A stretch of DNA of 43,201 nt, taken from IMG/VR virus record IMGVR_UViG_3300023096_000009, positions 1 to 43,201 of that record; one strand, 5' to 3'. This DNA comes from a virus. Of this stretch, positions 365-43,201 are shown one piece after another. The position numbers and the translations under genes are program-made. The stretch's first letter is position 1, and the number at the start of each line of letters is the position of its first letter. Under the pieces are notes generated by a model. It ran no database searches and was not told where the DNA came from. It was given only the letters and a program-made list of their open reading frames with translations.

Positions 365-684
365 GCAAGCCCGTTCCCGCATCGAAGCTGGTCGAGCGCT
401 ACGGCTTCACCGCGCGCCACTGGACGCGGCTCGCGGCGCAAGGCAAGGTTCCAGGCGCTCGTCAGCCCTTTGGCGCCAACGGCCGCTGGGTGTTTGACCC
501 GGAGGCCGTCGCGCGCTGGTGGGAGGCCCAGCGCAAGCAGGTGAACGAATGGCCAATGTCTACAAGCGGGGCAACACGTGGTGGGGCCGGGCGCAAAAGA
601 ACGGTGAAGAGTTTCGCCGTTCCCTCGAAACACGATCTGAGAGCGTCGCTCGCGAGCGTCTTAGGACGTGGCTCGACGAGCTAG
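361..684 (+). CDS. xis: Excisionase-like winged-helix DNA-binding protein
   Basis: A 107-residue protein whose first 60 residues match the MerR/excisionase-type HTH pattern: a start helix (SKLVERYGFTARHWTRLAA), a GKVPGAR turn and a strand-helix ending in FDPEAVARWWEA. It would direct excision together with the integrase. It starts by ATGA overlap with the upstream gene. Odd point: the frame stays open for 136 bp inside the integrase gene, giving an about 40-residue basic tail with no recognised fold; the tail may simply be a by-product of the overlap. Confidence 0.75.
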   Translation: MSKPVPASKLVERYGFTARHWTRLAAQGKVPGARQPFGANGRWVFDPEAVARWWEAQRKQVNEWPMSTSGATRGGAGRKRTVKSFAVPSKHDLRASLASVLGRGSTS

Positions 685-1712
685 ACGCCTCTGCATGGGG
701 CGGCCGGCCGAAGGTCACCTTCAACACCGCCGCCGACGTCTTTATCCGCGAGCACGGCCCCACGCTGCGGCCAGGCTCGCTCAAGCGCTACGGCTCATCC
801 ATCGTCTGGTTGGAAGAGCGCTTCTCCGACAAGCTCATCGCATCGATATCGACAGCGGATCTGCGCGAGTTTGAGACGTGGCGGCGCTCCATGGGCGCGG
901 CGGCGCCGACCGTGCGGCGCGACCTCGCCTGCCTGTCGTCCATCTACGGATTCGCGATCGAGAAGGAATGGGTAGACGCCAACCCGGTGTCGCCCTTCCT
1001 CAAAGCCCGCAAGAAGCGCGGCTTGCGCGAGAGCCCGTCACGCACCCGCTATCTCACCCGCGCGGAAGAGGCCCGGCTGCTGGAAGGCGCCATCGCCCGC
1101 GTGCGCGACGCCATACTGGTGGCGATCTATTCCGGCCTGCGGTCAGACGAGCAATGGGGGCTGACATGGGACCGGGTCGACCTGGCGCGCAAGCAGGTCG
1201 TCATCCCGAAGGAAATGGCCAAGGGCAAGCGCGAGCGCACCGTCATCCTGCTCGATCCGGCAGTCGAGGTGTTGAAGCGGCTCCCCCGGCATATCCGCTC
1301 GCCGTTCGTGTTCTTCCACGGCGGCCCGCTGCCGAGCAAGAAGCCGGGCGATGCACCCCGGCGGGTGTCGCGGACCACGAAGGACGGCGACCGTTTCAAC
1401 CACATGCTGCGCGGTTTGAAGAAGGCGGCCGAGCGGGCCAACGTGCCGGATCTCATCTGGCACGATCTGCGCCGGACCCATGGGTGCCGGTGCATTCAGG
1501 AGCAGAACTTCTCCATGGAGATGGTCCGCGACCAGCTCGGGCACTCCAGCGTGGTGCAGACCGAGAAAGCCTATGCCTTCCTTGAGGTCGAAGCACGCCG
1601 CACACGTGCCGGCACAATTCCCGGCACAGCCGAGAGCGAAACGGTTCACGACGTGCAAAGCGTTGTGAAACCTCAACAGGGCAAGCGGCTGGCGACAACC
1701 AAGAAGAAGTGA
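549..1712 (+). CDS. int: Tyrosine-type phage integrase
   Basis: A 387-residue site-specific recombinase. N-terminal arm-binding-like region (residues 1-45, YKRGNTWWGRAQ), core-binding SAM-like domain (about 55-150), then a catalytic domain with all expected residues: R198 in SGLRSDE, a lysine near 225-227, H305 and R308 in HDLRRTH, H332 in LGHSS and nucleophile Y342 in TEKAYAF. Start at 549 (MANVYKRG) rather than the longer frame at 519, because the family typically begins here. It is the last gene of the plus-strand early operon and its 3' end lies about 95 bp from the attP core, the usual phage arrangement. Direct repeats that may be its arm sites begin within its 3' coding region. Confidence 0.95.
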   Translation: MANVYKRGNTWWGRAQKNGEEFRRSLETRSESVARERLRTWLDELDASAWGGRPKVTFNTAADVFIREHGPTLRPGSLKRYGSSIVWLEERFSDKLIASISTADLREFETWRRSMGAAAPTVRRDLACLSSIYGFAIEKEWVDANPVSPFLKARKKRGLRESPSRTRYLTRAEEARLLEGAIARVRDAILVAIYSGLRSDEQWGLTWDRVDLARKQVVIPKEMAKGKRERTVILLDPAVEVLKRLPRHIRSPFVFFHGGPLPSKKPGDAPRRVSRTTKDGDRFNHMLRGLKKAAERANVPDLIWHDLRRTHGCRCIQEQNFSMEMVRDQLGHSSVVQTEKAYAFLEVEARRTRAGTIPGTAESETVHDVQSVVKPQQGKRLATTKKK

Positions 1713-4074: not shown

Positions 4075-4455
4075 TCAGGCCCCGATCGGCTTCTTGGCCA
4101 CCCAACGGCCGTAAAGGGTGATCGCGCCGCCGACGGCCGTCCCTGCGGCCATGGTGATGCCAATGATGGCCTCGGCATCCTCCGGACTGACGGCAAAGCC
4201 GAAAAGGCCAGCGGCACCCGCACCCATCGACACCAGAGCGCCGATCGTCACGCGAGACTGATACCAGGGCTCGGAATTGGTGGCGTGCGTCGCCTTGGCC
4301 ACGATTTCCTTCACGACAGGGTTCTGGCGAACCTCCTGAATGACCTGCGAGGCGATCTCGCGCGACTGCTCGCGCGGGGCATTGTTGAGGGGCGAGCGAA
4401 CGACTTGCTCGACCGCGCCACGGATGGCGCCGGTAAGGATGTCGGCGACGATCAT
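4075..4455 (-). CDS. Holin-like membrane protein
   Basis: A 126-residue protein with a soluble N-terminal half (MIVADILTGAIRGAVEQVV...) and two C-terminal hydrophobic helices (VTIGALVSMGAGAAGLFGFA; IIGITMAAGTAVGGAITLYG) joined by a short acidic turn, ending in a basic KKP tail. The ATG at 4455 overlaps the endolysin stop as ATGA and is preferred to 4470. Being coupled to the endolysin and having two helices fits a holin; related alphaproteobacterial phage proteins occupy this position. Direct evidence of pore function is lacking. Confidence 0.6.
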   Translation of the reverse strand: MIVADILTGAIRGAVEQVVRSPLNNAPREQSREIASQVIQEVRQNPVVKEIVAKATHATNSEPWYQSRVTIGALVSMGAGAAGLFGFAVSPEDAEAIIGITMAAGTAVGGAITLYGRWVAKKPIGA

Positions 4456-5234
4456 TTGGAAAGCTCCCATGTGAAGGTGTGGCCTGCGGATTCGGCGAGC
4501 ACGGCAAGGGCGGTCGCCATGCCGGCGATCATGGTCAGGGCGGCGTCCTCTGCCGGTGATGGGGCGGGCGGCTCACCCAGCTCCGCATCGCCGCGCCAAC
4601 CGGCAGCGGTCCACCCGGCGGCATTGAGGGCGGCGAGGAAGGACTCGGCGTAGCCGGCGATGGCGGCGGCGCGGTCAGTGCCATTGACGACGGCGCGGGC
4701 ACCGATGAAGTCATGGGCTTCACCGGCGAGGAACTTCTCCATGCTCTTGCCGGTGAAGTCGCCCTTGCCGCTGGCACCGGCAAGCATGCCCTCGAACAGG
4801 ATGCGGGCGGATATGGCCGGATCGAGTGCGAGGCCGGGATTGCTCACGAGATCAATGCCGATGATCTCGCCCAGGCGGCGATAGTTGTCCTCGTGGGTGA
4901 GCTGCACGTCGCCTCGGCCGAACATCGACCGGCCCTTGGCATCGACCCGCCAGTACGGCGTCTTCACGCTTGGCAGCTTGCCGGCCTTCCACGCCTTCTC
5001 CAGCGCAGCGACAGCACCGGCATCCGTCGACGCGAGGGTCTCTCGCACCGGCTGCATGCGCTTGGCGGTCTCGTGGTAGCTGGTCGCCAACGGATAGGCG
5101 ACGAGGTCGCGATCATCGAGATTGAGCCGTGCGGCCTCATCGAGCAGGCGGGTGAGGCCGCTAACTTGTGATTGGGTCAGCCGGCCGCCAAACAGCGACG
5201 AGCGCACCCGGTCAAAGAAGACCGTGCGGTTCAT
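4452..5234 (-). CDS. Endolysin, GH19-like lysozyme/chitinase fold
   Basis: A 260-residue murein hydrolase. N-terminal MNRTVFFDRVRSSLFGG; the catalytic-acid motif ATSYHETAKRM (Glu in YHET, about residue 55) and the GH19 signature GRGDVQLTHEDNYRRLG (about 106-122) identify the family used by many phage endolysins. The C-terminal about 50 residues are hydrophobic (MIAGMATALAVLAES), perhaps a membrane anchor or a helix packing against the holin-like protein. No signal peptide at the N-terminus, so export should depend on a holin. An intrinsic terminator lies just upstream (5265-5290) and a broken copy of its first 70 bases lies at 5537-5607. Confidence 0.9.
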   Translation of the reverse strand: MNRTVFFDRVRSSLFGGRLTQSQVSGLTRLLDEAARLNLDDRDLVAYPLATSYHETAKRMQPVRETLASTDAGAVAALEKAWKAGKLPSVKTPYWRVDAKGRSMFGRGDVQLTHEDNYRRLGEIIGIDLVSNPGLALDPAISARILFEGMLAGASGKGDFTGKSMEKFLAGEAHDFIGARAVVNGTDRAAAIAGYAESFLAALNAAGWTAAGWRGDAELGEPPAPSPAEDAALTMIAGMATALAVLAESAGHTFTWELSK

Positions 5235-5264: not shown

Positions 5265-5290
5265 AAAAAGCCGCCCGGTCAGGGCGGCTT
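5265..5290 (-). terminator. Intrinsic terminator upstream of the endolysin
   Basis: A 9-bp perfect stem (5268-5276 with 5282-5290; AAGCCGCCC on the plus strand), a 5-nt loop, and five T on the minus strand at 5265-5269. It lies between the gene ending at 5326 and the endolysin start at 5234. If active it limits read-through from the tail module into the lysis genes, implying partial termination or a lysis promoter in the about 30 bp that follow. Confidence 0.75.
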
Positions 5291-5682: not shown

Positions 5683-7005
5683 TTAGGGCTTTGTCGCCTC
5701 GAAGATGAGCGCCCAATTCGTCATGGGCCGCAACGTCCCCAATGCATCGGTATAAGCGCCGCCCTCGCTGTCACGGAGGTTTCCACGAGGGCCCAACGAC
5801 CGGCCGCCCCGGTGGGGATCGTCCGGGCGCCCAAACGCATAGCTCAAACGACTGCCACCGGGCGGTTCTTCGTTAAGGACAATGGTCACTTCAGTAGGAG
5901 ACGTCACTGATACCGAGAGGATTGCATTTGGCACCAATGTTCCATCTTTGGTCCAGAGATCGAACCCCATATTGGGTGCCTCACTGATCCAATCCGTATC
6001 CAAAGCGACCGGGGGGACAGGTACGTAGAACGACATTCGAATCCGGGTGCCCGACCAAGTCGCTTCTTTTAGGTCAAGTGCCACAGGGGGCGTCGGTACG
6101 CCGCTTTCCCGCGCATGAACCAACTTGGCGAGTGCCCGACCAAAATACTTTCCGACATGCTGGTACGTCACATTCTTTGCGTGAACATCACCCGCAAAAT
6201 CACCGAGGTACATGGGCAGCACGCAGTAGATTATGTCGCTTGCTAATCCAGCTTCTCGGATCGCAAGGGCAATTTCCGGCCGCTCGGGAGTGCTCGCTCG
6301 ACCACGCGCGAGATATGCGCGATGACTGGCGGGTTGATAGGCAAGAAACGGCGGGACCCAACCATCCTTGGTCAAGGCGGCAGTATCGTTCGATATCGAC
6401 GCAGCGAGTTCCTTCAGCCACTTGGTGTAAGTCTCGCGATCCGTTCCAGCCAGATGGTCGGTTTCACCGTGCGACATCAGCGTCGCCAGATAGCGGTAAT
6501 CTTGACCTTCGGCCCGCGCCAGGCGCGCGCCCGCCTCGGCGTACTGAATGAGCCACCCATAGTTTGCTGACGGTGGCAGCAACACCTTGAGGCGCGCCCC
6601 GGACCGCCCGGCACTGGATCCCAGGATTGAGAAATCGAGCTTATTAGGATCGGCGCCACGCAATTCCGCTAGGGTGAATCGAAAGGTTTCCGCGGCAGCG
6701 GCTATGCCTGTCTCGCCACGCGCACTCTCACGCGTTTCCGCGAGAGGTACAAACCCATCCAGCAGCGGTGCACGCTTGGGCGGGCGCCGGACGCCCTCAC
6801 GAAACATTACGTCGAACTGACTCGGTTGAGTGGTGAGAGCAGGCACGCCCAACGTGCCCAAACTCAAACTTTGCCCATACCCCACGATGTGCCAAATGGG
6901 GCGGCGCGGGCTGTTTTCGTGTTCCGGAGCAGATTCTGCTTCGCTGCCGCATGCCGAGACCACCAGCGCGATGCCGGACACCATTCTCCAGAAAAGCGAG
7001 CGCAC
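5683..7005 (-). CDS. Lipoprotein SGNH/SASA-type carbohydrate esterase-like protein
   Basis: A 440-residue protein with a GTG start directly after the TAG of the upstream gene (TAGGTG), so translationally coupled. It has a lipoprotein signal peptide: MRSLFWR, a hydrophobic core and lipobox VVSAC with Cys19. The enzyme part has the block I motif GYGQSLSLG (Ser46), an MSHGETDH segment like the QGE motif of sialate O-acetylesterase (SASA) enzymes, and a C-terminal DVHAKN segment that can supply the Asp/His pair. The last about 120 residues form a beta-rich domain. Likely removes O-acetyl or similar groups from a cell-envelope or exopolysaccharide glycan; the substrate cannot be told. A lipoprotein is host-directed rather than part of the virion. 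Less GC-rich than the structural genes beside it. Confidence 0.75.
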   Translation of the reverse strand: MRSLFWRMVSGIALVVSACGSEAESAPEHENSPRRPIWHIVGYGQSLSLGTLGVPALTTQPSQFDVMFREGVRRPPKRAPLLDGFVPLAETRESARGETGIAAAAETFRFTLAELRGADPNKLDFSILGSSAGRSGARLKVLLPPSANYGWLIQYAEAGARLARAEGQDYRYLATLMSHGETDHLAGTDRETYTKWLKELAASISNDTAALTKDGWVPPFLAYQPASHRAYLARGRASTPERPEIALAIREAGLASDIIYCVLPMYLGDFAGDVHAKNVTYQHVGKYFGRALAKLVHARESGVPTPPVALDLKEATWSGTRIRMSFYVPVPPVALDTDWISEAPNMGFDLWTKDGTLVPNAILSVSVTSPTEVTIVLNEEPPGGSRLSYAFGRPDDPHRGGRSLGPRGNLRDSEGGAYTDALGTLRPMTNWALIFEATKP

Positions 7006-8097
7006 CTAAGGGGTCACCACCGGCGAGGAAGCATCGGGCGAGCCCACCTTCTTTCGGTGCATTTTGCGTTCATTTATCCTCGCCGCCCTTCGTAAAGCTC
7101 GACGCCTCTGACCCGTCGCTTTGCGCCGGGCCTGCCGCGCCTCTTCGTCCTCGCCGAAGGTGCCTGCGACGGCACCATGCCCAGACTCACCAATCTTTTT
7201 ATCCAAGCGCTGCGCTTTGCGAAAGGACATTTCGAGCTTCTCCTGCGGCAAATCGGATGTGCAGAAAAAGTGTTCGAATATCTTCATATTGAATGCAAGC
7301 ACATGTGCATAAACATGCCGCCGGTCCGCATTCCACTGATGATTGAAGGCATGCATGACGATGTCGTAGCTTGGGAAATAAAAGAGGCGATCATCATTTG
7401 GCGATGCCTCCTGATAGAATTCATCAACTGCCGATCTGATCGTCGCCTTTGAGACGGCATTCGCTGCAATTGCGGTAACCGGCCGGAAAGTGGCCGCAAG
7501 AGGAATCGGCGAAACGGTGAAAACCACCGTTGCATTCGGCCTATATGTTCGGATCAAGCTGTGTATAGCTCTGATATTCGCAAGCGTCTCAGCATGTGTC
7601 GCCACGCGAAATTTGTGTCGAGAAGCGTCGTATTTTTCTTTGGGTATAGCGCGCCAGAACACTTCCCCAGTGGGCTCGTCGTACCAAATCTCGCTCAAGC
7701 CAAGCGTAATAATGAAAACTTCCGCTTCGTTAAAAAGTCTCAGCGTGTCGGCGTGAGCTGACTCCGTATAGCCAAACTCTTCAGCCTCATAGCCATGCCA
7801 TAGATCTTGCGACGGAGTCTTGTTGAGCCACGCCCACTCAAACTGCTGGCGAATGGCATGAGTATGCACCATGCCATCGCCCATGCGGGTAACGTAGGCC
7901 TTGTTATCCTTACGAGTAAGAACGTTGAAGCCCCGTTTATGAAGATACTTACTAATATTACCGGCGAAGCAGGACCCAAACGCAACAATTGGAGCGCTTT
8001 TTGAGATGTATGGCTCCTTAGGCATCCACCCACGCGTCAAATACTGCGCGAGTGCGAACGATTTATCCAACGAGCTGTCATTTGGATAAATGTTCAT
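7006..8097 (-). CDS. GSCFA-domain protein (SGNH-hydrolase relative)
   Basis: A protein of about 363 residues (403 if begun at 8217, 387 from 8169). It has the family signature AFGSCFAGNISKYL (about residues 39-52 from the 8097 start), then HTHAIRQQFEWAW, an ITLGLSEIWYD block and VVFTVSPIPLAATF, all typical of the GSCFA family related to PC-esterase/SGNH enzymes. The C-terminal about 70 residues are strongly basic (RRKATGQRRRALRRAARINE) and look like an added tail. The start at 8097 follows a GGGGGG stretch and fits the conserved region. It precedes the lipoprotein esterase with no gap, so both probably act on the same glycan. Composition is noticeably more AT-rich than the tail genes. Confidence 0.8.
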   Translation of the reverse strand: MNIYPNDSSLDKSFALAQYLTRGWMPKEPYISKSAPIVAFGSCFAGNISKYLHKRGFNVLTRKDNKAYVTRMGDGMVHTHAIRQQFEWAWLNKTPSQDLWHGYEAEEFGYTESAHADTLRLFNEAEVFIITLGLSEIWYDEPTGEVFWRAIPKEKYDASRHKFRVATHAETLANIRAIHSLIRTYRPNATVVFTVSPIPLAATFRPVTAIAANAVSKATIRSAVDEFYQEASPNDDRLFYFPSYDIVMHAFNHQWNADRRHVYAHVLAFNMKIFEHFFCTSDLPQEKLEMSFRKAQRLDKKIGESGHGAVAGTFGEDEEARQARRKATGQRRRALRRAARINERKMHRKKVGSPDASSPVVTP

Positions 8098-8397
8098 GGT
8101 TGCCCCCCGGAAGAAGGAACCACTTACCCTTTTAACGACGCCATCGTGGGTAATATCAGTGCCTGCCATCTGGCCCCCCACCGGTAAATGCGGAATGATC
8201 GAGGCTAGACAGCACATCCCTCTAGGTCAAGGAGAGTCCTAGATGATGCTATTCATTTAATGGTTGGTGGTATCGGAGGAAATACTCCTAGAAGCCCCGT
8301 CCGTTCATCAAGGCCTTTAGGTCAATGTGGGGATCCAAATGGCCTTCGAAGCCCTCAGCCGTTGGTGAGCTTTCGTGGCACTAGCGCCGTATTCTGG
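8098..8397. other. Intergenic stretch upstream of the GSCFA gene
   Basis: About 300 bp that is non-coding if the 8097 start is right; otherwise the part up to 8217 is the 5' end of that gene. The rest (8218-8397) is AT-richer than the surroundings and holds no convincing gene, and I found no clear terminator. It may carry a promoter for the two-enzyme unit. Confidence 0.4.
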
Positions 8398-8787
8398 CTA
8401 GCGAACAAGTCGAAGCGGCACGCGTAATGGACGATCCGGGATACTCTCGTTGATGGTTTCCGGCAAACCCTCCCAGGCAGCCAGTTCATCCATCGCGGAC
8501 GATTCGATCATCGCGAGCGCACTGGCTAAAGCGCGGCGGGCGACCTCACGTCCAGCAATATTCGGGGGGAAACATGATCCGTCCCCATAATCTATAAAAA
8601 TTTCTTGATCAGCAGAGCGAACCAGAACCACTATTGGTATTTCTTCTATTTTCTCCACTGCTTTTGCGAGCCGCTTTGCGGTAATAGCACGCCGCCTTTT
8701 ATCCTTTCTCTCAGCAATACGATTTGCTTTCCGCAGCGCTCGTTTTTCAGCCGCACGCGTTGTCTTTCCGCCTTCAATTAGCTCCAC
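8398..8787 (-). CDS. Basic helical protein downstream of the tail fibre, unknown
   Basis: A 129-residue protein with a GTG start preceded by AGGAG. The first 45 residues are very rich in Lys and Arg with coiled-coil-like character (AAEKRALRKANRIAERKDKR), then a small alpha/beta region with VVLVRSADQEIFIDYGDG, and an acidic helix. It directly follows the receptor-binding protein gene, the usual place for fibre chaperones or assembly factors, but no such domain is seen. Function unknown. Confidence 0.6.
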   Translation of the reverse strand: MELIEGGKTTRAAEKRALRKANRIAERKDKRRRAITAKRLAKAVEKIEEIPIVVLVRSADQEIFIDYGDGSCFPPNIAGREVARRALASALAMIESSAMDELAAWEGLPETINESIPDRPLRVPLRLVR

Positions 8788-8899
8788 GGACGACTCCTGT
8801 TACGGCCATATACGGGCGGCTTCTGTTGCGCGCGAGAAACCTTGCATACGCGAATAAGATTTGTCGAGACACCAAAGCAGCGTTTCGTGTGCTTACCGA

Positions 8900-11800
8900 C
8901 TACGCCTTAATCACCCGCAGGCTCGTGCAGTGCCGGCCCGTGATGGCAGTTTGGCCAGTGCCAAAGCGGATGCCGGCAAAGCCCGCCGAGGCGATGGCCG
9001 CATCGGTCACCGCAATGACGGTCACGCCATTGACCTGCACACTGATCGCCGTGCCCTTCATCGTCAGGCGTACCGTCCGCGAGCCAGCCGACCAGTCGTC
9101 GGGCGAGTTGGCGAGCAGCGTCTGCGCCCCGGCGACGGCTTTATACAGATCCCAGCCGGAGCCGTGCCGGTAGCGGGCAAAGTACAGCGTCTGTTCGGTC
9201 CCGCTAGCTCGCCCGATGACGCCGCAGTCATCGGTCAGCGCGCCGACGAAATCGAACACGCCTTCCACCGCATAGTCGCTACCGGGCGGCGGCGTCAGGT
9301 TGCGATAAACCGAGCTCGACGTTTGCGACCGAACCCGATTGTTCAACACCACTGGCGAAACAGCGGCAGTGAACCCGCTCTGGAGCGCATAGCCCAACCC
9401 AATATCGGGGAGGTGCGCCAGTAGGAGGGCGCCATTCGCTGCCGTGAAGGTGTCCAGCAGCAGCGCAGAGAAGGTCCCCAGCGTGAAGCCGGACAGATGT
9501 ACACCTCCTGTCGAGGACCCTGCCACGCCGAAACGCACGCCGCCGAAGCCGGGCTTGGTGACTTCAGTATCGGTGACGGCGATGCGGGTCGCCCCATCGA
9601 CCTGCACGGATATCGCCGAACCGATCATGGTCAGGGAGAGTTTCCGCACCGTGCCTGCCAAGAAGGCGTCAGCCGAGGACGAACCCAGCAGGGTGGTGAC
9701 GCCGGCAACGGTCTTGCTCAACTCGAAGGCAGCGCCGGCGCGGCTGTAATGCGCCCAATAGAAGGTGTTCAGCCGGGGGCTGGCACGGCCGATCACGCCG
9801 ACATCGGCGGCACTGGTGTCGAGGCACACCATCTCGATCTCGACCGAATAGTCGGCCGAGGCCGGGGCGGTCAGATTTCGATAGACCGCATTCGTGGCCG
9901 GCCCGAACAGGCGGCCATTGGCGAACTGGGCATCGAGCGTCGGCGCGTAACCGGTCTGGCGTTCCCACCCGAGCCCGACGTCCGGCATCCGTGAGACGAG
10001 CGCGGCACCATCGGCACCATCGAGGAAGTCGACGACGGTCGCCGCCACGTCGGGATCGGGGCGCTTGGTCGCCGCCAGGACGGCCGTCGCGATAATCTGG
10101 TGACCAGCATCGTTCGGATGAATCTTGTCGGCGCCTATGATCGTTTGCCCCGCCAGCACCGCCGCCTTCATCGGCGTGTAGCTGTCGGCCCAATACACCC
10201 CGAATTCATCGGCAACCTGCTTGGACGCAGCGACATAAGCTTCGAAGCCGGCGCGCGACTGGCCATAGAAGCCCGCCGTTCCCGCCGTCGCCAGCCCATC
10301 GTCGATCATGTAGTGCGGCGTGACCACCACGATGCGGTTGCGCGGATAGCCCTCGGCGAGAATGCCCCCGAGAACCTCCCGGTAGTCGTTTATGTAGGCA
10401 GAGACGTTGAACCTGTCCGGGTTGGCGACATAGCGGGCATCATTGAAGCCGTAGGCGCTTATGACCAACTCGGCGGCGTTCGCCCCCATCACCGCCGTGG
10501 TGTAGCGGTCACGCCCATTGCTGGCGCGGGGTGAGCCGGACGAATCCGGGCTGTTCTGCAGCACCGTGCCCGAACTGCCCTGATTGTTCGGCACACCAGC
10601 GCTCAGCGCGGCAGCAACCAGATCGATGAACTGCTTGGCGTCAACCGTCGCTCCTTGGCCGCGCATGATGCTGTCGCCGAAGCCGACGAGGTTGACGACC
10701 GTCGCCGGCATCGGTGCCATCACGCGCGCCGTCGCCGTTACCCGGCGGGTTCCAGCCACCTCGGTGACCGAGATCACTGCCGTGATAGTCTTGCCGACAT
10801 CGCCCGAGGCGACGACATAGGTGGGCCCTGTTGCGCCGGCGATCGGCACGCCGTTCTGCATCCACTGCCACACATAGGCGACGGACACCGGCCACAGCCC
10901 CAGATCGATCGTGAGCGCCTGCGCCAGCACGACCTGGCCGAGGATGACCGGCCGTATGAGCGGCCTTAGGTCGTTCACCGCGTAGAGATCGGCCTTGCGA
11001 GCGACCGATTGCGTGAGCGCGCTGAGGGCGGCAGCGCCGCCCAGCTGCGCGCCCAGCAGCGCCACGAGGCTGGAATAGCTGATGCTCCGCAGCAGGCCAT
11101 CCGAGGTGCGCCGCACGGCGACCTGATCGGTATCCACCAGCGACGTGACGGGCGCCGCGCCAGCAATGGAGCTTGGCACGTCGACATTCTCGATGTCGCC
11201 GATGCGCGCCCACCCGATGGGATCGAAATTCCAGGCAAACTGCCCGCGATCGGAAACGGTCAGACCCGTCACCGGGTCCGTGTGCTCGCCGGCGTCGGCA
11301 AAGCTGCGCGCGGGCTGGCCGGCATAGCTGCCGGTGATCGCGGCAAGGCCGGCCCATGAGCCTTGGTCGATCGGCTCGGCCGCCGGCCCGGTCGGGCCTT
11401 CTGGTCCGGCAGCGCCCTCGGAAGCCCAGAAGTCGATCGACGCGATATCGACCGAGCCATCCTCGCCATAGGTCCGCGTCATGGCGCGGGCGTACCGCGC
11501 GTTCGCCGGGATCACATAATCGGCCGCCTGGTCGATCGAGAACGTTGCCTGGGTGATGTGCAGGCCCGACGCCACGGTGATAACGCCCTCGTACACGATC
11601 AGCGTCGAGATGGTCGCCATATTGGCGTCCAGCCAGCGGATGGCGCACTGGATGGCATGGCCGACCGGGTCGGCTGGCGTGACGGTGCGACGAGCGGTCC
11701 AGCGGCAGGAATACAGCAACCCCGGCTCGATCGCGTCGTTCTGCCGGCGGGCAATGATGCCCACGCCGACGATGCGACGGACCATGCCATCGGCACCGAC

Positions 11801-12052
11801 CACTGACGTGCCGATCGTGAGCGGCGCCAGCGCCTCGGCACGGCCGCTGATCGACGAGGTGAAGGCCTCGGGATTGTCACCAGGCCGCGCCGTGGCTGAT
11901 CGATTGATGCCGGCCCGGAGCAGCAGCTTGGCCGCTTCGAGCGACGTCAAGGAGGCCTTGCTGTCGACCTCGTTGGCCTTAGAAATTGCGGAGTTGGTCT
12001 TGGTTCGGATCACAGCTGCGCCGTCGCCCGATCCGATGGGATCAATCGCCAT
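8900..12052 (-). CDS. Receptor-binding tail protein with an SGNH hydrolase and two lectin-like domains
   Basis: A 1050-residue virion protein. Residues 1-380: tail-attachment part with a short collagen-like GPEGPTGPA stretch at about 216-224. About 385-450: Ig-like domain (WQWMQNGVPIAGATGPTY). About 452-670: SGNH/GDSL hydrolase with GFGDSIMRG (Ser461), GFND (N537, D538) and DKIHP (D642, H645), so all catalytic blocks are present. About 676-1050: two tandem concanavalin/LamG-like beta domains that share PDVGLG/PDIGLG, SVYRNLT-type and AISVQV-motif blocks. Likely binds the host surface and deacylates a glycan. It ends the tail module, just before two further SGNH-type genes. Confidence 0.85.
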   Translation of the reverse strand: MAIDPIGSGDGAAVIRTKTNSAISKANEVDSKASLTSLEAAKLLLRAGINRSATARPGDNPEAFTSSISGRAEALAPLTIGTSVVGADGMVRRIVGVGIIARRQNDAIEPGLLYSCRWTARRTVTPADPVGHAIQCAIRWLDANMATISTLIVYEGVITVASGLHITQATFSIDQAADYVIPANARYARAMTRTYGEDGSVDIASIDFWASEGAAGPEGPTGPAAEPIDQGSWAGLAAITGSYAGQPARSFADAGEHTDPVTGLTVSDRGQFAWNFDPIGWARIGDIENVDVPSSIAGAAPVTSLVDTDQVAVRRTSDGLLRSISYSSLVALLGAQLGGAAALSALTQSVARKADLYAVNDLRPLIRPVILGQVVLAQALTIDLGLWPVSVAYVWQWMQNGVPIAGATGPTYVVASGDVGKTITAVISVTEVAGTRRVTATARVMAPMPATVVNLVGFGDSIMRGQGATVDAKQFIDLVAAALSAGVPNNQGSSGTVLQNSPDSSGSPRASNGRDRYTTAVMGANAAELVISAYGFNDARYVANPDRFNVSAYINDYREVLGGILAEGYPRNRIVVVTPHYMIDDGLATAGTAGFYGQSRAGFEAYVAASKQVADEFGVYWADSYTPMKAAVLAGQTIIGADKIHPNDAGHQIIATAVLAATKRPDPDVAATVVDFLDGADGAALVSRMPDVGLGWERQTGYAPTLDAQFANGRLFGPATNAVYRNLTAPASADYSVEIEMVCLDTSAADVGVIGRASPRLNTFYWAHYSRAGAAFELSKTVAGVTTLLGSSSADAFLAGTVRKLSLTMIGSAISVQVDGATRIAVTDTEVTKPGFGGVRFGVAGSSTGGVHLSGFTLGTFSALLLDTFTAANGALLLAHLPDIGLGYALQSGFTAAVSPVVLNNRVRSQTSSSVYRNLTPPPGSDYAVEGVFDFVGALTDDCGVIGRASGTEQTLYFARYRHGSGWDLYKAVAGAQTLLANSPDDWSAGSRTVRLTMKGTAISVQVNGVTVIAVTDAAIASAGFAGIRFGTGQTAITGRHCTSLRVIKA

Positions 12053-12228: not shown

Positions 12229-12690
12229 ATGGCTATTCAAGTGACAGCGATCAAAAGCGCTCAGTTCCGCGAGGAAGACGCTTCGCTATTCATGACGTTG
12301 GCGGACGATGCCGGGGATGAATGCACCCTTGAACTGTCCGGGTCATTGATCGTCGTGCTTGCCGGGTTCGCGGGGATGGCGACACAGGCACTTGCAAGCG
12401 AAGCCACCTCCGCCAGAGCGACGGGTTTTCGGCACGTGAACAAAATGGCGGCAGATGCGGACGGCGCTTCGGTCAGCATCCAAATCACCGACGCTCATGA
12501 AGAAGTCCACGAATTCGGATTGAATGAGCGTATCGCCAGTACTCTCCACCAGGGCCTCCGGAAATCGCTCGAAGTGCTACGCAGAAAAATGACAGAGAGC
12601 GACGTCGAATTCGACGGTCCACTCGCCAAACTGTTGGAGATGCGCAAGCGGGGACAACGGTCATCGCCCTTCCCCGCTCCCCGTTCATAG
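12229..12690 (+). CDS. Plus-strand accessory gene inside the late operon, unknown
   Basis: A 153-residue protein (MAIQVTAIKSAQFREEDASL...) on the opposite strand to all tail genes around it. It has a ribosome site AAGGAATAGG before the ATG, an acidic beta-rich N-terminus, a hydrophobic alanine-rich helix (SLIVVLAGFAGMATQALA), and a charged helical C-terminal part (LHQGLRKSLEVLRRKM). It ends by overlapping the convergent tail gene by 6 bp. The inverse orientation, presumably own promoter and no structural hallmark fit a moron, expressed in the lysogen. No domain recognised. Confidence 0.65.
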   Translation: MAIQVTAIKSAQFREEDASLFMTLADDAGDECTLELSGSLIVVLAGFAGMATQALASEATSARATGFRHVNKMAADADGASVSIQITDAHEEVHEFGLNERIASTLHQGLRKSLEVLRRKMTESDVEFDGPLAKLLEMRKRGQRSSPFPAPRS

Positions 12691-13326
12691 TGCTTCGATG
12701 AAGCTGATGGTCGGGTCGGCGAACCGGCCGAGGTCAAGGTCGAGATCGCCGGTGTTCATGTCCGCCGGTACGCACAGGCAGACGATATCCTTAAAGCGAA
12801 GCTGGGCAGTGACGGCCAGAGATGCCCGCAGTGGCGGCATGATATCCACCTCATAGGTGGCGACGTCCTGCGCAACGGCATCGGTGGTCGGCAGACCGGC
12901 TTCCGCTGCCTGGTAAAAACCGGTCGTGCTTACGATCCGGTTGATGCGGTACATCTGCGAACCGCGATTGAAATAATGCCCGGCCTTAAGGATCAGCGCA
13001 GTCTCGAACGTCAGTCGAGTGGCGCGGCGAGCGGCGGCAACGGTCAGCGATGCCGTACTGGTGACGTCGATGCCCTGCGGCGCCTCGCCCCCGCACACCT
13101 TCACGTCGATGTCCTCACCCGAGCGCAGCCGGTCCAGCATCGAATTCCAGTCGCGAACCTGCTGCGGCGTGCGGATCGGCACCGTGTAGGAGATGCGCCA
13201 GAACCCAGCGTCGCTCATTACCCGCTGCTCGCGCCCGGTGCTGGTACGCCCTCCGCTCTTGGTGAAGCTCGAAAGGGTCACCGCAGCATTGCGCGGCACC
13301 AGCGAGGTTGGCCACGTGACTGTCAT
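12685..13326 (-). CDS. Tail-tip associated protein
   Basis: A 213-residue protein, MTVTWPTSLVPRNAAVTLSS..., with a beta-rich layout and repeated phrases typical of phage tail-base proteins (FWRISYTVPIRTPQQVRDWN; FETALILKAGHYF). It starts 2 bases after the stop of the tail-tip protein and precedes the receptor-binding protein gene. Probably links tip and fibre; the family is not named. Confidence 0.65.
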   Translation of the reverse strand: MTVTWPTSLVPRNAAVTLSSFTKSGGRTSTGREQRVMSDAGFWRISYTVPIRTPQQVRDWNSMLDRLRSGEDIDVKVCGGEAPQGIDVTSTASLTVAAARRATRLTFETALILKAGHYFNRGSQMYRINRIVSTTGFYQAAEAGLPTTDAVAQDVATYEVDIMPPLRASLAVTAQLRFKDIVCLCVPADMNTGDLDLDLGRFADPTISFIEAL

Positions 13327-13328
13327 GG

Positions 13329-15407
13329 CTATTCCTCAATAACGGGAACGACGACACTGCCGGCCGATACCGGCGGGGTCGTTTCAATTCCGGAGCCGTT
13401 GAAGGCGGTCACCCACACGCGATAAGTGTCGGGATCGAGGCCTTCAATGGTGAAGGTGTCTATGGTGTTCGCCGCGCCGTAGCGCGTCGCCACCAGATCG
13501 GCGGAGGTGAACACGGACGACGTGCCGAGATAAATCTTGGCGCCCCGATAGTTCGCGCTGTTGCCGCCGCGCCAGCGCACATCGATGTCGCCGGTGTCCT
13601 CATCCGCCGAAACCGTGGTGACTTGCGCCGCCGGGGTCGGGTCGACCGCATTGGCGACAGCGTTCTCAACCATGGCCCAATTCGACACCCGACCGCCCGT
13701 GCCGCGATACCTGACGCGAAGGTCATAGGCCGCACCTGCGCTGACGCCGACGGCCTCGGCCGTGTTGTCATCCTGCGACACCGGAATGCTAGTCCAGGCG
13801 TTCGCCCCGTGCGGCGATATCTGTGCTTCGGCCTGAAGATCAAGCCGTGGCTTGGCGTCCCATGACAGTAGAATGGCCGCCACAAGATCACCGCCGCCGG
13901 TGGCACGAGACGACGAAGCCCAGATGACACCCGCAGGCGGAAACAGGGTGAAGACAGGCGCGGGGGCAGGCACGGCCGGTGCCGTACCTTCCTCGGTAGC
14001 CGGGTCGAACGCATAGGCGTCGGGTCCGAATGACGACAACTGCAGCGAGACCGACATCGTGCCGGGATCAAGCTCCACGTTGAGCACCTCGAACGTCTCG
14101 TCGATGCCGGCATCGCTTATTTGCACGCGGATCCAGCGCTGATCCCAGGCATTGAGACCGTGCAGGTTCGTGCGCAGCGTGATCTGCCAGCGCGGGCTAT
14201 TGCGGTGCTGGATGATCTTGGCCAGCCGGCGGGCGAGATTGTGGTGTTGAACCTCGTAGGTGTCGACGCTTTGGGACAGTTCGCCCTGCTCGGCTATCAG
14301 GGCCTCATCGCGCCACGGATCGGAGGTGGCCTCTGAGTAATCCTTGGCCGGGTTGGTGTACTTGATGATGACGATATTCGAGGCGGAGAACGGCCCGCTG
14401 CCATCGGTGATCTCGTAACCGAGGATGTGATCGTCGGAAATGGTGACGCTGGTCGCCACCCATTTGCCTGCCAGCACCCCGATCTTGCCTTCGCCGGTCA
14501 GGAACAACCGGCCATCCATGGCGCGCAGGATGCGCTCGATCACCGAAGCCGGGTCGGCCTCGAAGCTGTAGGACAGCGAGCCGTGATAGCGCGGTATGGA
14601 GCCGCCTGCCTTCAGCCCGGTTGCCTCGTCGCAGACATTGGCGGCCGCGATGAACAGATCGGTGTCGATCAGGCTGGACGAGATTCGCGCGCCATCGGCG
14701 TGGGTGAGATAGTCCCGCAGGATGAGCGCCATATTGGCGGTCCAGGCCGTGGAGCCGCTGCGCGGGTCATACACCCGCACCCCGCGCATGACGGCGTTCA
14801 CCTGCGGAATGCGCTCCGGGTAGACTGCGCTGAAATCCTCCTGCACCACGGCGCGGGCCAGGATATGGGCATAAGCCAGACCCTTGAGCTGGTGCGCCGT
14901 CGACCAGACGTCGGTCCCGAAGCGCTCTATCAGCATGGCGACCGCGCTTTGAGTGCTTGACCCGCGATAGGGATAGATACCGACGCCGCGCGAATTCTGC
15001 GGCGCATCGACCGCCATGCCGCTGTCGCCGCCGGACAGCGAGTAGATATTATTGTCGATGTAGAAGGTCTCATAGGCGTCGATGAGACCCTGACCAAACA
15101 CCAGCAGCTGGTGCAGATTGCCGTTCTCGGTCTCGATAAACACCAGCGACCCGCCCGCCTTCAGGCGGCCATAGTGCCGGGTGCGGGCTGACACCGATTG
15201 CCGAATGATGCCGGACACATCCTGCGGGCGGGGCGATGTCGGCTTCTCCCCGAATAGCGCATTGGCTGCATAAGACAGGCCGAGAGACAGGCCGATCCCG
15301 ATGACGCCGGAAGCGATCACACCGAGCCCGGTGAGTGCGGCCGCCGTACCGAAGAGCGCCGTGGTTCCCGTGGCGACCGCGAGCGCGCCGACGATAGCTC
15401 CGGGCAT
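13329..15407 (-). CDS. Tail tip / central fibre (host-specificity J-like) protein
   Basis: A 692-residue protein, start at 15407 (MPGAIVGALAVATG) where its ATG overlaps the stop of the upstream gene by one base; a longer frame to 15890 is a shadow of that gene. Residues 1-60 are a hydrophobic alanine/glycine-rich segment, as in many tail-tip proteins that enter the membrane. Then a baseplate-hub-like core (about 75-440) and fibronectin type III-like modules in the C-terminal third (PPAGVIWASSS..., and DPDTYRVWVTAFNGSGIE). The order after tape measure and the DUF6950-type gene fits siphovirus tail tips. It probably forms the tip and positions the receptor-binding protein. Confidence 0.8.
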   Translation of the reverse strand: MPGAIVGALAVATGTTALFGTAAALTGLGVIASGVIGIGLSLGLSYAANALFGEKPTSPRPQDVSGIIRQSVSARTRHYGRLKAGGSLVFIETENGNLHQLLVFGQGLIDAYETFYIDNNIYSLSGGDSGMAVDAPQNSRGVGIYPYRGSSTQSAVAMLIERFGTDVWSTAHQLKGLAYAHILARAVVQEDFSAVYPERIPQVNAVMRGVRVYDPRSGSTAWTANMALILRDYLTHADGARISSSLIDTDLFIAAANVCDEATGLKAGGSIPRYHGSLSYSFEADPASVIERILRAMDGRLFLTGEGKIGVLAGKWVATSVTISDDHILGYEITDGSGPFSASNIVIIKYTNPAKDYSEATSDPWRDEALIAEQGELSQSVDTYEVQHHNLARRLAKIIQHRNSPRWQITLRTNLHGLNAWDQRWIRVQISDAGIDETFEVLNVELDPGTMSVSLQLSSFGPDAYAFDPATEEGTAPAVPAPAPVFTLFPPAGVIWASSSRATGGGDLVAAILLSWDAKPRLDLQAEAQISPHGANAWTSIPVSQDDNTAEAVGVSAGAAYDLRVRYRGTGGRVSNWAMVENAVANAVDPTPAAQVTTVSADEDTGDIDVRWRGGNSANYRGAKIYLGTSSVFTSADLVATRYGAANTIDTFTIEGLDPDTYRVWVTAFNGSGIETTPPVSAGSVVVPVIEE

Positions 15408-15805
15408 CAGATGCTCCACGCCGCGACGACGCGGCAGTCTCGAATGGCGGCGATGCCGCGATGTGCCTTGATTGCCCAGAAGCCGGCCTGCGTGCGGATG
15501 GCGCCCCACCACCGGCCAGCATGGCGAACAACTGCAAAATCTCCGGGCACCGGTTTCGTGGTGCGGCGCGCTCCAACGGATCGGGCCAACTTCTCCACCA
15601 GCCGCGGCAGGTTCCGATTTGCCGAGAGAATGGCCGAGCAGCTCGCTTCGTCGACATAGGCGCCGCGAAGGTGTGCGGCCGGGTCGGAGCCGTGATTGAC
15701 CTGCCACCAATCCGCGAGCATCAGCGCGCAATCGAGCACGCCATAGCCGAAGGGCTGCCGCGCCAGGTCGGCGAGGAAGTCGGAAAGCGAGGCGCGCATG
15801 CTCAA
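15407..15805 (-). CDS. DUF6950-like tail component (Cys-His, NlpC/P60-like)
   Basis: A 132-residue protein with the motif FGYGVLDCALMLADWW (Cys at about residue 26) and a later GDFAVVRHAGRWWGAI segment supplying a His; this Cys-His arrangement and position are those of the small phage tail protein family DUF6950, related to papain-like peptidoglycan peptidases. It could open the cell wall during entry or assist tail assembly. Its start at 15805 overlaps the stop of the preceding gene, and its stop overlaps the tip gene start. Confidence 0.75.
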   Translation of the reverse strand: MSMRASLSDFLADLARQPFGYGVLDCALMLADWWQVNHGSDPAAHLRGAYVDEASCSAILSANRNLPRLVEKLARSVGARRTTKPVPGDFAVVRHAGRWWGAIRTQAGFWAIKAHRGIAAIRDCRVVAAWSI

Positions 15806-16380
15806 TAATCCGGGAAGATAATGGTCTTCTGGTCGATGCCGGCGACGCGCTCCAGCCCCCGATCGCCGGGGTAGCGCTGTTGCTGGTCACGGTCGGTGAG
15901 GTATCCGAAGCCAGGCCGCCGACGGGTCACGAAGGGTGTCTCCGCCGACACCGACACGGTGTAAACCGGCCCGTCTTCTCCCTGCGCCATGGTCTGCGTC
16001 AGGCGATCCATTAAGCGCATCGAGACGGCGTAGGGCGAGTCGAGCGTCTGCCACGCCTCATCGAAAAACTGGAGATAGACCAGCACGGCGCGCCCGTAAT
16101 ATTCCTCGCGCTCTCCGCGTGCGATCGACGCGAAGCGTGCATCGACGCCGGAAAGGGTGAGCGTTTGTTCCGGCGCGGTGCCGTTGATGGCCTGCTGTAG
16201 CCCGGTCAGCGAGCCAAGACCCGCCAGTCCTTCCCAAACCTTGCTGTCCTGCGTGCCCAGCGGGCCGAACCCATTCCAAAGCCGTACGGTGCTGGAGGCG
16301 AACCGGAACTCGACAAGATAATCGAGCCGCACCAGCCGGCCCTCCATCTGCTCTTTGACAGCAGCGGAGAAATTCATCAC
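15802..16380 (-). CDS. Minor tail / distal tail protein (DUF2163-like)
   Basis: A 192-residue protein with features of minor tail proteins between tape measure and tip: YLVEFRFASSTVRLWNGFG, an AINGTAPEQTLTLSGVD block, and the C-terminal pattern RRRPGFGYLTDRDQQQRYPG. In gene-transfer-agent-like gene order this position holds the distal tail protein. It overlaps the tape measure stop by 4 bp. The family assignment is by pattern and order. Confidence 0.7.
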   Translation of the reverse strand: MMNFSAAVKEQMEGRLVRLDYLVEFRFASSTVRLWNGFGPLGTQDSKVWEGLAGLGSLTGLQQAINGTAPEQTLTLSGVDARFASIARGEREEYYGRAVLVYLQFFDEAWQTLDSPYAVSMRLMDRLTQTMAQGEDGPVYTVSVSAETPFVTRRRPGFGYLTDRDQQQRYPGDRGLERVAGIDQKTIIFPDY

Positions 16381-40890: not shown

Positions 40891-41772
40891 ATGCACAAGG
40901 GTGAGAAGCGCGCGTCCCCCTACCTTATCGAAGGTCCTGCTCTCATTAGCTTTAGCGGCGGTCGAACGTCCGGCTACATGCTGTATCAGATAACCCAAGC
41001 GCACGGCGGCGTGCTGCCAGCCGATGTGTACGTCGTCTTCGCCAACACCGGCAAGGAGCGCACTGAGACGCTTCGGTTCGTGCATGAGTGCGAAACTCGC
41101 TGGGGTGTTCGCATCCGGTGGGTCGAATGGACCCCCAACGCGCCCGGCTTCATCGAAGTAGGATTTAACAGCGCCTCACGTGCCGGCGAGCCCTTCGCTG
41201 CGCTGATCGAGAAAAAGAAACGGCTACCCAATTGGAAAGAGAGATGGTGTACCGCGAACCTCAAGGTGCAGCCGATGACCGACTTTGCGGCATCGATCGG
41301 GTTGCTGCCCGGCCAATATGCCGAGGTCGTCGGGCTCCGCGACGACGAGGGGTTCCGCATCCTTCGCGGCATCGAAAACGCGGAGAAGCACGGCAGGCGG
41401 ATGCTCTACCCGTTGGCGCGCGCGAAGGTCGTCAAGGCTGACGTGATGGCCTTTTGGGCGGTTCAAGATTTCGATCTCGGGCTTGAGCCTTGGGAGGGAA
41501 ACTGCGATCTCTGCTTTCTCAAGGGGCGGGCGATCAAGAAGCGCATCTTGCGCGACAACCCGAGCTTTGGCTTTTGGTGGGCATCGCTCGAAGGCGTCCA
41601 CAAAGGGAAGCAGTCGCGCGGGTGGTTCGACCGCCGAGACAGCGTCGCGGGTCTGTTGGACGAAGTTTCAGCCTCACCCGACTTCTTCGACCTGCCGGCC
41701 GCTGACGAATACGACGTGGAATGCGGTTCAATCTGCGCCCTCGCCGCCGAGGGGGACACCTCCCATGGGTGA
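40891..41772 (+). CDS. PAPS-reductase-like PP-loop protein
   Basis: A 293-residue protein with the PP-loop SFSGGRTSGYM at residues 20-30, VYVVFANTGKERTETLRFVH, WCTANLKVQPM and NCDLCFLKGRAI with paired Cys in the C-terminal third. Family: phosphoadenosine phosphosulfate reductase-like, adenylating ATP pyrophosphatases. In phages such proteins are linked by context to nucleic-acid modification, but the substrate is unknown. It overlaps the Gp37/Gp68 gene by 8 bp, so the two are likely a functional pair. Confidence 0.8.
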   Translation: MHKGEKRASPYLIEGPALISFSGGRTSGYMLYQITQAHGGVLPADVYVVFANTGKERTETLRFVHECETRWGVRIRWVEWTPNAPGFIEVGFNSASRAGEPFAALIEKKKRLPNWKERWCTANLKVQPMTDFAASIGLLPGQYAEVVGLRDDEGFRILRGIENAEKHGRRMLYPLARAKVVKADVMAFWAVQDFDLGLEPWEGNCDLCFLKGRAIKKRILRDNPSFGFWWASLEGVHKGKQSRGWFDRRDSVAGLLDEVSASPDFFDLPAADEYDVECGSICALAAEGDTSHG

Positions 41773-42844
41773 CGCCACCGGCATCGAATGGACCGACGCG
41801 ACGTGGAATCCGGTCGTGGGCTGCAGCATCGTCTCGCCCGGCTGCACCAACTGCTACGCCATGAGCATGGCGGCGCGGATCGAGCGCATGCAGCCCGGCT
41901 CGCACTATGCAGGCACAACCCAGCCCAGCAAGGCCGGCCCGGTGTGGACCGGCAAGCTCGCGCTCGCACCGGAGCACATCCTGCTGGCGCCGCTACGCTG
42001 GCGGAAGCCGCGCCGCATCTTCGTCAATTCCATGGGCGACCTGTTCCATGAAGACGTACCGGATGCGTGGATCGACCAGGTGTTAGCCATCATGGCGATG
42101 TCACCGCAGCACACCTATCAGGTGCTGACCAAGCGCGCGGCGCGCATGCGGGCTTACTTCGATGCGCGACGCACCGGCGACCCATGGGCAGAGGCCGCCG
42201 ACTTGGTAGCCGATGCGCTGGGTCTCGCCGATCACCCCGCTGTGCTGGAGCCAAGCGGCCTGCCCCTGCCGAACGTCTGGCTCGGCGTCTCGACCGAGGA
42301 TCAGCGCCGCGCCGATGAGCGCGTGCCGGATCTGCTCGCCACGCCGGCGGCCGTCCGCTTCGTCAGCGCCGAGCCGCTGCTCGGGCCGATCAAGTTCTAT
42401 TCCCTCACCCCTGTCCGTAACGAACAGGGTGCGACGGAAGCATGGCTCGACCCCCTACGCGGGCTCCAGTTCGGCCCGGGGCAGCACGAGACCGCGAAGC
42501 TCGACCTTGTCATCGTCGGCGGCGAGAACGGCCCCAGGCCGATGCATCCCGACTGGGCGCGTGACCTTCGCGACCAGTGCGCAGCGGCCGGCACAGCGTT
42601 CTTCTTCAAGCAGTGGGGCTCGTATGAGCCGGCCGTCGACCGTGAGCGTGACGATCCGGATTGGCGGCTGGACTACAGCTGGAAGTTCGCCGACGGCGAC
42701 AAGATGAAGTGGCTCAACCTGGCCGGCGGCACCGGCTTCCACGGCGAGCGCTTCCACGTCATGCGCCGCGTCGGCAAAGCCAACGCCGGCCGGCTTCTCG
42801 ACGGCGCCGAGCACAACGCCATGCCGGAGGTGCGGCATGGTTGA
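41765..42844 (+). CDS. Gp37/Gp68 (DUF5131) family protein
   Basis: A 359-residue protein beginning MGDATGIEWTDATWNPVVGC. Family signature C-x6-C-x2-C (Cys20, Cys27, Cys30 in GCSIVSPGCTNCYA), then KPRRIFVNSMGDLFHEDVPD, TYQVLTKRAARM, NVWLGVSTEDQRRADERVPD and VSAEPLLGPI, with FFFKQWGSYEPA near the end. The Cys cluster suggests an Fe-S centre; a radical-SAM-like mechanism is only an inference. Follows the PP-loop gene with overlapping ends. Confidence 0.85.
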   Translation: MGDATGIEWTDATWNPVVGCSIVSPGCTNCYAMSMAARIERMQPGSHYAGTTQPSKAGPVWTGKLALAPEHILLAPLRWRKPRRIFVNSMGDLFHEDVPDAWIDQVLAIMAMSPQHTYQVLTKRAARMRAYFDARRTGDPWAEAADLVADALGLADHPAVLEPSGLPLPNVWLGVSTEDQRRADERVPDLLATPAAVRFVSAEPLLGPIKFYSLTPVRNEQGATEAWLDPLRGLQFGPGQHETAKLDLVIVGGENGPRPMHPDWARDLRDQCAAAGTAFFFKQWGSYEPAVDRERDDPDWRLDYSWKFADGDKMKWLNLAGGTGFHGERFHVMRRVGKANAGRLLDGAEHNAMPEVRHG

Positions 42845-43013: not shown

Positions 43014-43201
43014 CAGAACGCAGCCTGCGTCCCGAGGTTCGTAACCCCGTCCTCGGCCTTCCAGCCGCGCAGCGCATTGAGGAACTGTCGCCAGAAGCTC
43101 GCGCCATTCTTGCCGAGATACTTCGCGACATCACCCACTATGCGCGAGAGCACGCCCAGGTCAGTTGGCGTAAAAACAAGGGACCGATGGCCCGGGCCAT
43201 C
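43010..43201 (+). CDS. Small early protein, N-terminal part (continues at base 3)
   Basis: The start of the 88-residue protein whose end is at 207-209. It begins MTERSLRPEVRNPVLGLPAA by ATGA overlap. The last eight bases of the window (43194-43201) do not match the continuation at 127 onwards and give a false end ARAI. Joining 43067 to 1 keeps the frame open. Confidence 0.75.
   Translation, partial: MTERSLRPEVRNPVLGLPAAQRIEELSPEARAILAEILRDITHYAREHAQVSWRKNKGPMARAI
43068..43193. repeat. Terminal direct repeat, right copy
   Basis: Identical to 1-126; see the left copy. It is followed by eight extra bases that are the reverse complement of the preceding eight. Confidence 0.95.
43186..43201. repeat. 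Perfect 16-bp palindrome at the contig end
   Basis: GATGGCCCGGGCCATC: the last eight bases are the exact reverse complement of the eight before. The genome continues with TCTATTGG at this place in the left copy, so the fold-back is probably a read or amplification artefact. Confidence 0.85.

Follow-up and report, generated by a model that had tools for sequence, protein, structure and literature searches.

A tail fibre with an esterase domain and a candidate lysogenic-conversion cassette of GSCFA and SASA-like genes in a temperate siphophage

Genes at the tail/lysis junction

The window analysed here is the whole 43,201-nucleotide stretch of IMG/VR virus record IMGVR_UViG_3300023096_000009, and the subject of this report is its tail/lysis junction, where a receptor-binding protein (RBP) gene is followed on the minus strand by genes for a GSCFA-family protein and a SASA-like protein. 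Integrase, terminase, portal, capsid, tape measure, tail tip and lysis genes are all carried on this 43.2-kb window, and a 126-bp direct repeat was found near both of its ends (1-126 and 43068-43193, with 8 stray bases after the right copy), which fits a circular, essentially complete genome of a temperate siphophage assembled as a linear contig. The order on the minus strand is tail tip, distal tail, RBP, small open reading frame (ORF), GSCFA, SASA-like protein, terminator, endolysin and holin-like gene. Assignment of the GSCFA/SASA cassette to a host flank was ruled out, since phage genes (integrase, terminase, portal, capsid and tape measure) flank it in both directions. The features of the region and the integrase were as follows.

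13329-15890, minus strand, tail tip gene
12685-13326, minus strand, distal tail protein gene
8900-12052, minus strand, RBP gene (1050 amino acids)
8398-8787, minus strand, small basic ORF (129 amino acids, GTG start)
8187-8231, minus strand, weak promoter-like stretch upstream of the GSCFA gene (CTTGAC-N17-TAGCCT), read by eye and given only as a guess
7006-8169, minus strand, GSCFA gene (no signal peptide seen; basic C-terminal helix)
5683-7005, minus strand, gene for the stand-alone SASA-like protein (440 amino acids)
5268-5290, minus strand, intrinsic-terminator-like hairpin with a T run after it, separating the cassette from the endolysin gene (AAGCCGCCCTGACCGGGCGGCTT-TTTACG; 9 pairs, 7 of them GC)
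4452-5234, minus strand, GH19-type endolysin (PF00182, 5.5e-8; phrog_181 endolysin, 4.5e-31)
519-1712, plus strand, integrase

A sequence-only reading of the window had described three SGNH-type hydrolase-like proteins in succession at the tail end. All three are real, with ORFs on the minus strand and family scores far above chance; they do not follow directly on one another, as the further ORF at 8398-8787 sits between the RBP and GSCFA genes.

The three SGNH-type proteins

Residues 458-653 of the RBP matched Pfam PF13472 (Lipase_GDSL_2) with E = 2.3e-15 (58 bits against a cut-off of 32.9), and the esterase domain (approximately residues 456-657) contains GDS at 459, GFND at 535 and DKIH at 642, with S461, N537, D642 and H645 as the motif residues. 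The full GDS/GxND/DxxH hydrolase noticed earlier was thereby confirmed at the motif level, and by its sequence the RBP is a GDSL/SGNH hydrolase-domain protein in which blocks I, III and V are complete. It matched the tail fiber family phrog_5240 with 1.4e-12, and solved acetyl xylan esterases were weak sequence matches. Because its base composition is phage-like (66% guanine plus cytosine (GC); GC at third codon positions (GC3), 0.81) and its gene adjoins the distal tail and tail tip genes, the RBP was assigned to the phage backbone; judged by architecture, it occupies the tail-fibre slot and is an ordinary member of the SGNH-domain tail fibres, resembling G7C gp63.1, the RBPs of Klebsiella prophages, and the fibres of VvAW1 and Serratia Opt-155. 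Fibres bearing SGNH domains are frequent in prophages, and for two of them esterase activity has been demonstrated; SGNH fibres of Klebsiella prophages that act as esterases and the deacetylase G7C gp63.1 provide precedents (PMC13123978). Two repeated lectin-like domains were also seen by eye C-terminal to the esterase domain of the RBP.

The GSCFA protein is a clear member of its family by Pfam score (PF08885, E = 7.5e-41, 140.9 bits against a cut-off of 25) and by its GSCFA motif. Its open frame extends to an ATG at 8217, from which the residue numbers used here are counted, and the ATG at 8169 corresponds to M17. The gene had earlier been placed at 7006-8097; the family assignment was upheld, and the start at 8097 proved too late, because it removes an N-terminal stretch, DG..(K/R)..S.S(F/Y)(F/Y)RG, that is common to GSCFA homologues, so that the ATG at 8169 is the most likely start. 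In an alignment of 46 GSCFA sequences, G81-S82-C83-F84-A85, S175, E176, D298 and H301 were invariant, and block V has the DxxH form (D298-R-R-H301, both residues invariant in 46/46). The nucleophilic Ser of SGNH block I is not present; an invariant Cys83, preceded by Ser82, is found there instead.

The AlphaFold model of the GSCFA protein, built from the 46 sequences, had a predicted local distance difference test (pLDDT) score of 87.4, and in it the first core strand (77-81) ends at G81 and the first helix begins at C83. In SGNH enzymes, the catalytic Ser is located where the helix following this strand begins. As C83 takes this usual place of the catalytic Ser, we infer from the secondary structure of the model, not from coordinates, that Cys83 is the nucleophile, acting with His301 and Asp298. 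Comparison with solved structures by Foldseek gave ten matches with E<=1e-3, all of them SGNH enzymes (TMt, 0.39-0.53), the nearest being EstL5, followed by the PatB O-acetyltransferase (7tjb), with platelet-activating factor acetylhydrolases also among the near folds, while matches in a viral structure library were esterases and GDSL proteins; the modelled GSCFA protein thus has an SGNH fold (clan CL0264). PatB, a peptidoglycan O-acetyltransferase, shows acetyl transfer by the same fold, whereas its substrate is peptidoglycan and its identity to the GSCFA protein is about 13%. WcbI of Burkholderia capsule synthesis, a proposed acetyltransferase, resembles the GSCFA protein in its link to capsule and its Cys/His pair (PMC4104973). 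Kinship of the two was not supported: the overall fold of WcbI is different, it was not among the 50 best solved-structure matches, and there was no sequence match. The basic C-terminal tail was also considered as a phage-specific feature and rejected, being present in chromosomal members of the clade too.

The start of the SASA-like gene directly abuts the GSCFA stop codon. Its product begins with MRSLFWRMVSGIALVVSAC|G, a signal peptide that fits a lipobox V-S-A-C (read by eye), and it gave no Pfam match of its own, the SASA / CE6 family PF03629 at its cut-off included. Kinship with that family was seen through relatives: four of the seven members of its alignment matched Pfam SASA (best, 2e-9), and the C-terminal half of phrog_4201 ('tail fiber protein') matched the protein over nearly the whole length with E = 1.4e-71. 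Relatives with 23-31% identity were present in 34 phage records, the profile matched the solved tail spike 9vyh with E = 1.8e-13, and the relatives included fibre genes beside gpJ-like or distal-tail genes of Serratia phage Opt-155 and of Hyphomicrobiales prophages; an Inquilinus fibre was 39% identical. Taken all together, the SASA relatives diverged too far for their alignment to serve as a scan query. The hallmarks of SASA/CE6 enzymes are GQS in block I and (H)QGE in block III (PMC9487903), and the protein has GQS with S46, SHGE (H179-G180-E181) with Q replaced by H, and H275 in GDVH. It is, as far as sequence kinship tells, a divergent SASA-type esterase related to the enzymatic C-terminal half of tail fibres. 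Unlike the SGNH tail fibres to whose enzymatic half it is homologous, it is detached from any fibre and bears an export signal; among the homologues examined, the stand-alone form with a signal peptide was found only for the window copy and two Ancylobacter copies, and a lipobox-like Cys only for the window copy. The earlier naming as a SASA-like lipoprotein agrees with the kinship and, by eye, with the signal and the VSAC lipobox.

Profile-level comparison gave no sequence similarity between the GSCFA protein and the RBP domain or between the SASA-like protein and the RBP domain, and the idea that the three are recognisable duplicates of one another was thus ruled out. What they have in common is the SGNH superfamily.

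Composition, spread and neighbourhoods of the GSCFA/SASA pair

A drop in GC content was observed at 5683-8787 (GSCFA, 51.9%; small ORF, 52.3%; SASA-like, 59.5%; surroundings, 63-68%), together with low GC3 (0.57, 0.45 and 0.63, respectively, versus about 0.72-0.87 for most phage genes). The same ordered GSCFA+SASA pair, 57-71% identical, was found on the chromosomes of Ancylobacter moscoviensis and A. mangrovi at unrelated places. No phage genes were recognised in the 10-kb flanks of the Ancylobacter pair by homology to proteins of this and related phages, so that its location within a prophage was not supported; with tRNA genes at about 0.1 and 0.7 kb from the pair, a degraded island is possible. 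Of 199 genomes sampled from the Ancylobacter family, one had SASA.

The trio of RBP, GSCFA and SASA, which had been proposed as something to seek in other phages, was found in none of them, and other GSCFA-bearing phages have no SASA partner. No INPHARED phage carried the GSCFA protein, and the RBP, the SASA-like protein and the tail-tip protein, each used as a query against viral contigs, found no relatives. Absence of the downstream genes from all related phages, raised earlier as a counter-sign, was not what was seen for GSCFA: phage L004, with a related tail tip, endolysin and terminase (49% identity), has GSCFA at the same slot as the window, yet among 20 Hyphomicrobiales prophage regions sampled via the tail-tip gene only one had GSCFA at the tail/lysis slot. 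In four of these 20 regions, a gene of fibre size that closely follows the tail tip gene encodes a SASA-type domain. In the GSCFA tree, the window copy was sister to the Ancylobacter copies (Shimodaira-Hasegawa-like approximate likelihood ratio test (SH-aLRT), 94), with a prophage group (L002, L003/L066 and L016) adjacent, and the L004 copy was nested with Methylopila chromosomal copies (SH-aLRT, 100). Because the window and L004 copies group with different chromosomal lineages, several independent entries of GSCFA into phages are indicated, in each case into the tail/lysis region of temperate phages of alphaproteobacteria.

GSCFA+SASA is a separately acquired foreign cargo cassette, as judged from its low GC, the terminator behind the pair, its occurrence on Ancylobacter chromosomes and its rarity in related phages. 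Two marks of a moron, foreign composition and absence from most related phages, were found for the pair; of a further mark, signals of its own for starting and ending transcription, the terminator was seen but no consensus promoter.

Recurring neighbourhoods support a link between GSCFA and surface glycans, as the sequence-only reading had supposed. Capsule export and pyruvyl transferase genes adjoin GSCFA relatives on a Polaromonas plasmid and in two Zavarzinia genomes, and pyruvyl transferase genes adjoin them on a Pararhizobium plasmid and in Mesorhizobium. In the large phages L082-L088, L091 and L092, GSCFA stands among GT25, GT8, pyruvyl transferase, cytidylyltransferase and GDP-mannose dehydratase genes, and in L089 a UDP-GlcNAc epimerase gene lies approximately 3.6 kb from GSCFA.

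Several further observations were made around these genes. In L082-L088, which have UvsX- and single-strand-binding-protein-like genes, the glycosyltransferase/pyruvyl transferase/GSCFA block lies between replication genes and holds a cytidylyltransferase/mannose-isomerase fusion. The Zavarzinia GSCFA relatives exceed 700 amino acids, with additional sequence, and share a block with methyltransferase genes (L023, 13313-15436; L024, 14574-16772). Several GSCFA-carrying phages have genes for proteins like flavin adenine dinucleotide (FAD)-dependent oxidoreductases directly behind the tail fibre gene (L004, 5545-7125; L005, 2620-4500; L002, 5981-7576; L148, 6321-7901), which is unusual for a tail region.

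In the window, no phage relative was found for the small ORF between the RBP and GSCFA genes, and its coding status is uncertain. Its basic motif KRALRKANRIAERKDKRRR is more than half identical to the GSCFA C-terminal basic helix RRALRRAARINERKMHRKK (7006-7130), and in 3 of 2000 shuffles the score was at least as high as that of the local alignment between its N terminus and the GSCFA tail; the likeness could stem from a docking helix common to both or from the remnant of a gene. A plus-strand ORF at 12229-12690 (153 amino acids, with a lower GC of 57.6%) runs against the late direction between the RBP and the distal tail protein and is possibly another cargo gene. PAPS_reduct-like and DUF5131 genes were seen on the plus strand at the right end of the window (40891-42844).

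Proposed role and alternative explanations

The region is interpreted, with a confidence slightly above even, as two separate things, a phage tail fibre with an esterase domain and a lysogenic-conversion cassette, GSCFA/SASA, altering the acylation of surface polysaccharide. The three proteins had been taken earlier as one set, and this was not borne out: the RBP belongs to the backbone, the pair was acquired separately and occurs also on Ancylobacter chromosomes, and other phages carry GSCFA without SASA. The part of that proposal concerning lysogenic conversion agrees with the cargo-like character of both downstream genes. At adsorption, the GDSL domain of the tail fibre would probably strip acyl groups from the receptor polysaccharide, as other SGNH tail fibres are reported to do, and the cassette would most likely work in the infected or lysogenic cell. 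There, GSCFA would modify in the cytoplasm the acylation of a polysaccharide or its precursor, by acyl transfer or removal, via Cys83-His301-Asp298 chemistry, and the exported SASA-like protein would act beyond the cytoplasmic membrane on the finished glycan. Both enzymes together would alter the acylation pattern of the surface polysaccharide, amounting to lysogenic conversion, and the altered surface would hinder phages needing the original form, with receptor masking as the likeliest benefit; during entry, the esterase of the virion fibre would target glycan of this type as well.

O-antigen converting enzymes are acetylases or glucosyltransferase operons, and they are membrane proteins. Prophages encoding them, such as D3 (Oac), P22 (GtrABC) and Shigella phage Sf6 (PMC11436027), likewise carry cargo that alters the host surface polysaccharide and hence the receptor of other phages. 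Here, in contrast, the cargo would be a soluble GSCFA protein and an exported SASA-type esterase, families for which the literature found describes no such role; no paper on phage-borne GSCFA at a tail/lysis junction was found.

Several points weigh against an active surface-modifying cassette. Block V of the SASA-like protein is not a DxxH: GDVH keeps His275 and has no Asp at -3, a residue that the Ancylobacter SASA copies carry (DDVH/DDIH), and its activity is for this reason not to be assumed; the protein may be weak or inactive. EcNanS is likewise without the block V Asp (PMC9487903). The structure prediction proposed earlier gave a good model of the GSCFA protein and failed for this one, whose AlphaFold model from three sequences had a pLDDT of 37 and was not used. 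Most Rhodobacteraceae, Inquilinus and Methylopila copies of GSCFA are solitary, as are Ancylobacter copies, and no glycan genes were recognised in their vicinity. As of 2022, GSCFA was one of five SGNH families without known activity, and it had no structure either (PMC9487903); glycans are not the only setting of the family, since members have also been found in biosynthetic clusters of the detoxin type (PMC12828459). In the window, the pair is co-directional with the late genes, and a scan for consensus promoters gave none above threshold for it.

These last two points also favour an unlikely alternative, in which the pair is co-transcribed with the late genes and helps in lysis or assembly, e.g., by removing receptor glycans to keep released virions from sticking to debris or sibling cells. 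The position between fibre and endolysin, the co-directional GSCFA copies of L004 and L148, and the identity of the SASA domain as a phage-fibre enzyme domain agree with it. A cytoplasmic GSCFA enzyme is, however, hard to fit into a lysis role, the pair also occurs on chromosomes without recognised phage genes, and in L016 and L002 GSCFA is encoded on the other strand than the adjacent lysis genes and faces away from them, which suggests that in these phages it is transcribed separately from the late operon.

It is also rather improbable that the pair is a host cassette gained by chance or already decaying, with no role for the phage. The trio found in no other phage, the SASA copy without its block V Asp, the small ORF as a possible fragment and the rarity of the pair in the sampled Ancylobacter-family genomes would be expected of such a hitch-hiker, but neither frame is interrupted over its 440 or 387 codons, all GSCFA active-site residues are conserved, and several phages acquired GSCFA in comparable slots by independent entries. 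A stricter form of the earlier trio, in which all three proteins are virion components and one tail tip bears three esterases that differ in specificity, is very improbable: membership of all three in the SGNH superfamily and the usual place of SASA-like domains in tail fibres would suit it, but the SASA-like protein and its Ancylobacter copies have an export signal at the start and no fibre or attachment domain, GSCFA relatives accompany capsule biosynthesis genes, and the pair differs from the RBP in base composition.

The reading as tail fibre plus lysogenic-conversion cassette can be carried further, doubtfully, to the proposal that GSCFA proteins are cytoplasmic, Cys-dependent SGNH acyltransferases that decorate capsule polysaccharides, often pyruvylated ones, and that the phage carries one of them along with a fibre esterase that has come loose and gained an export signal, by which the lysogen, acting on either side of the membrane, edits or shaves its receptor glycan. 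If true, this would give a first function to the uncharacterised GSCFA family and a route from fibre enzymes to exclusion proteins. Alteration of host surface sugars by a prophage is a known device, and the enzymes described here have probably not been studied for it. The recurrent neighbourhoods, comprising capsule export/pyruvyl transferase genes, glycosyltransferase clusters and cargo at the tail/lysis junction, give GSCFA a concrete, testable role, and, as the exported SASA-like protein suggests, a tail fibre's enzymatic head can be reused as an enzyme that the cell expresses to edit its surface, by which receptor use by the virion would be linked to receptor change in the lysogen.

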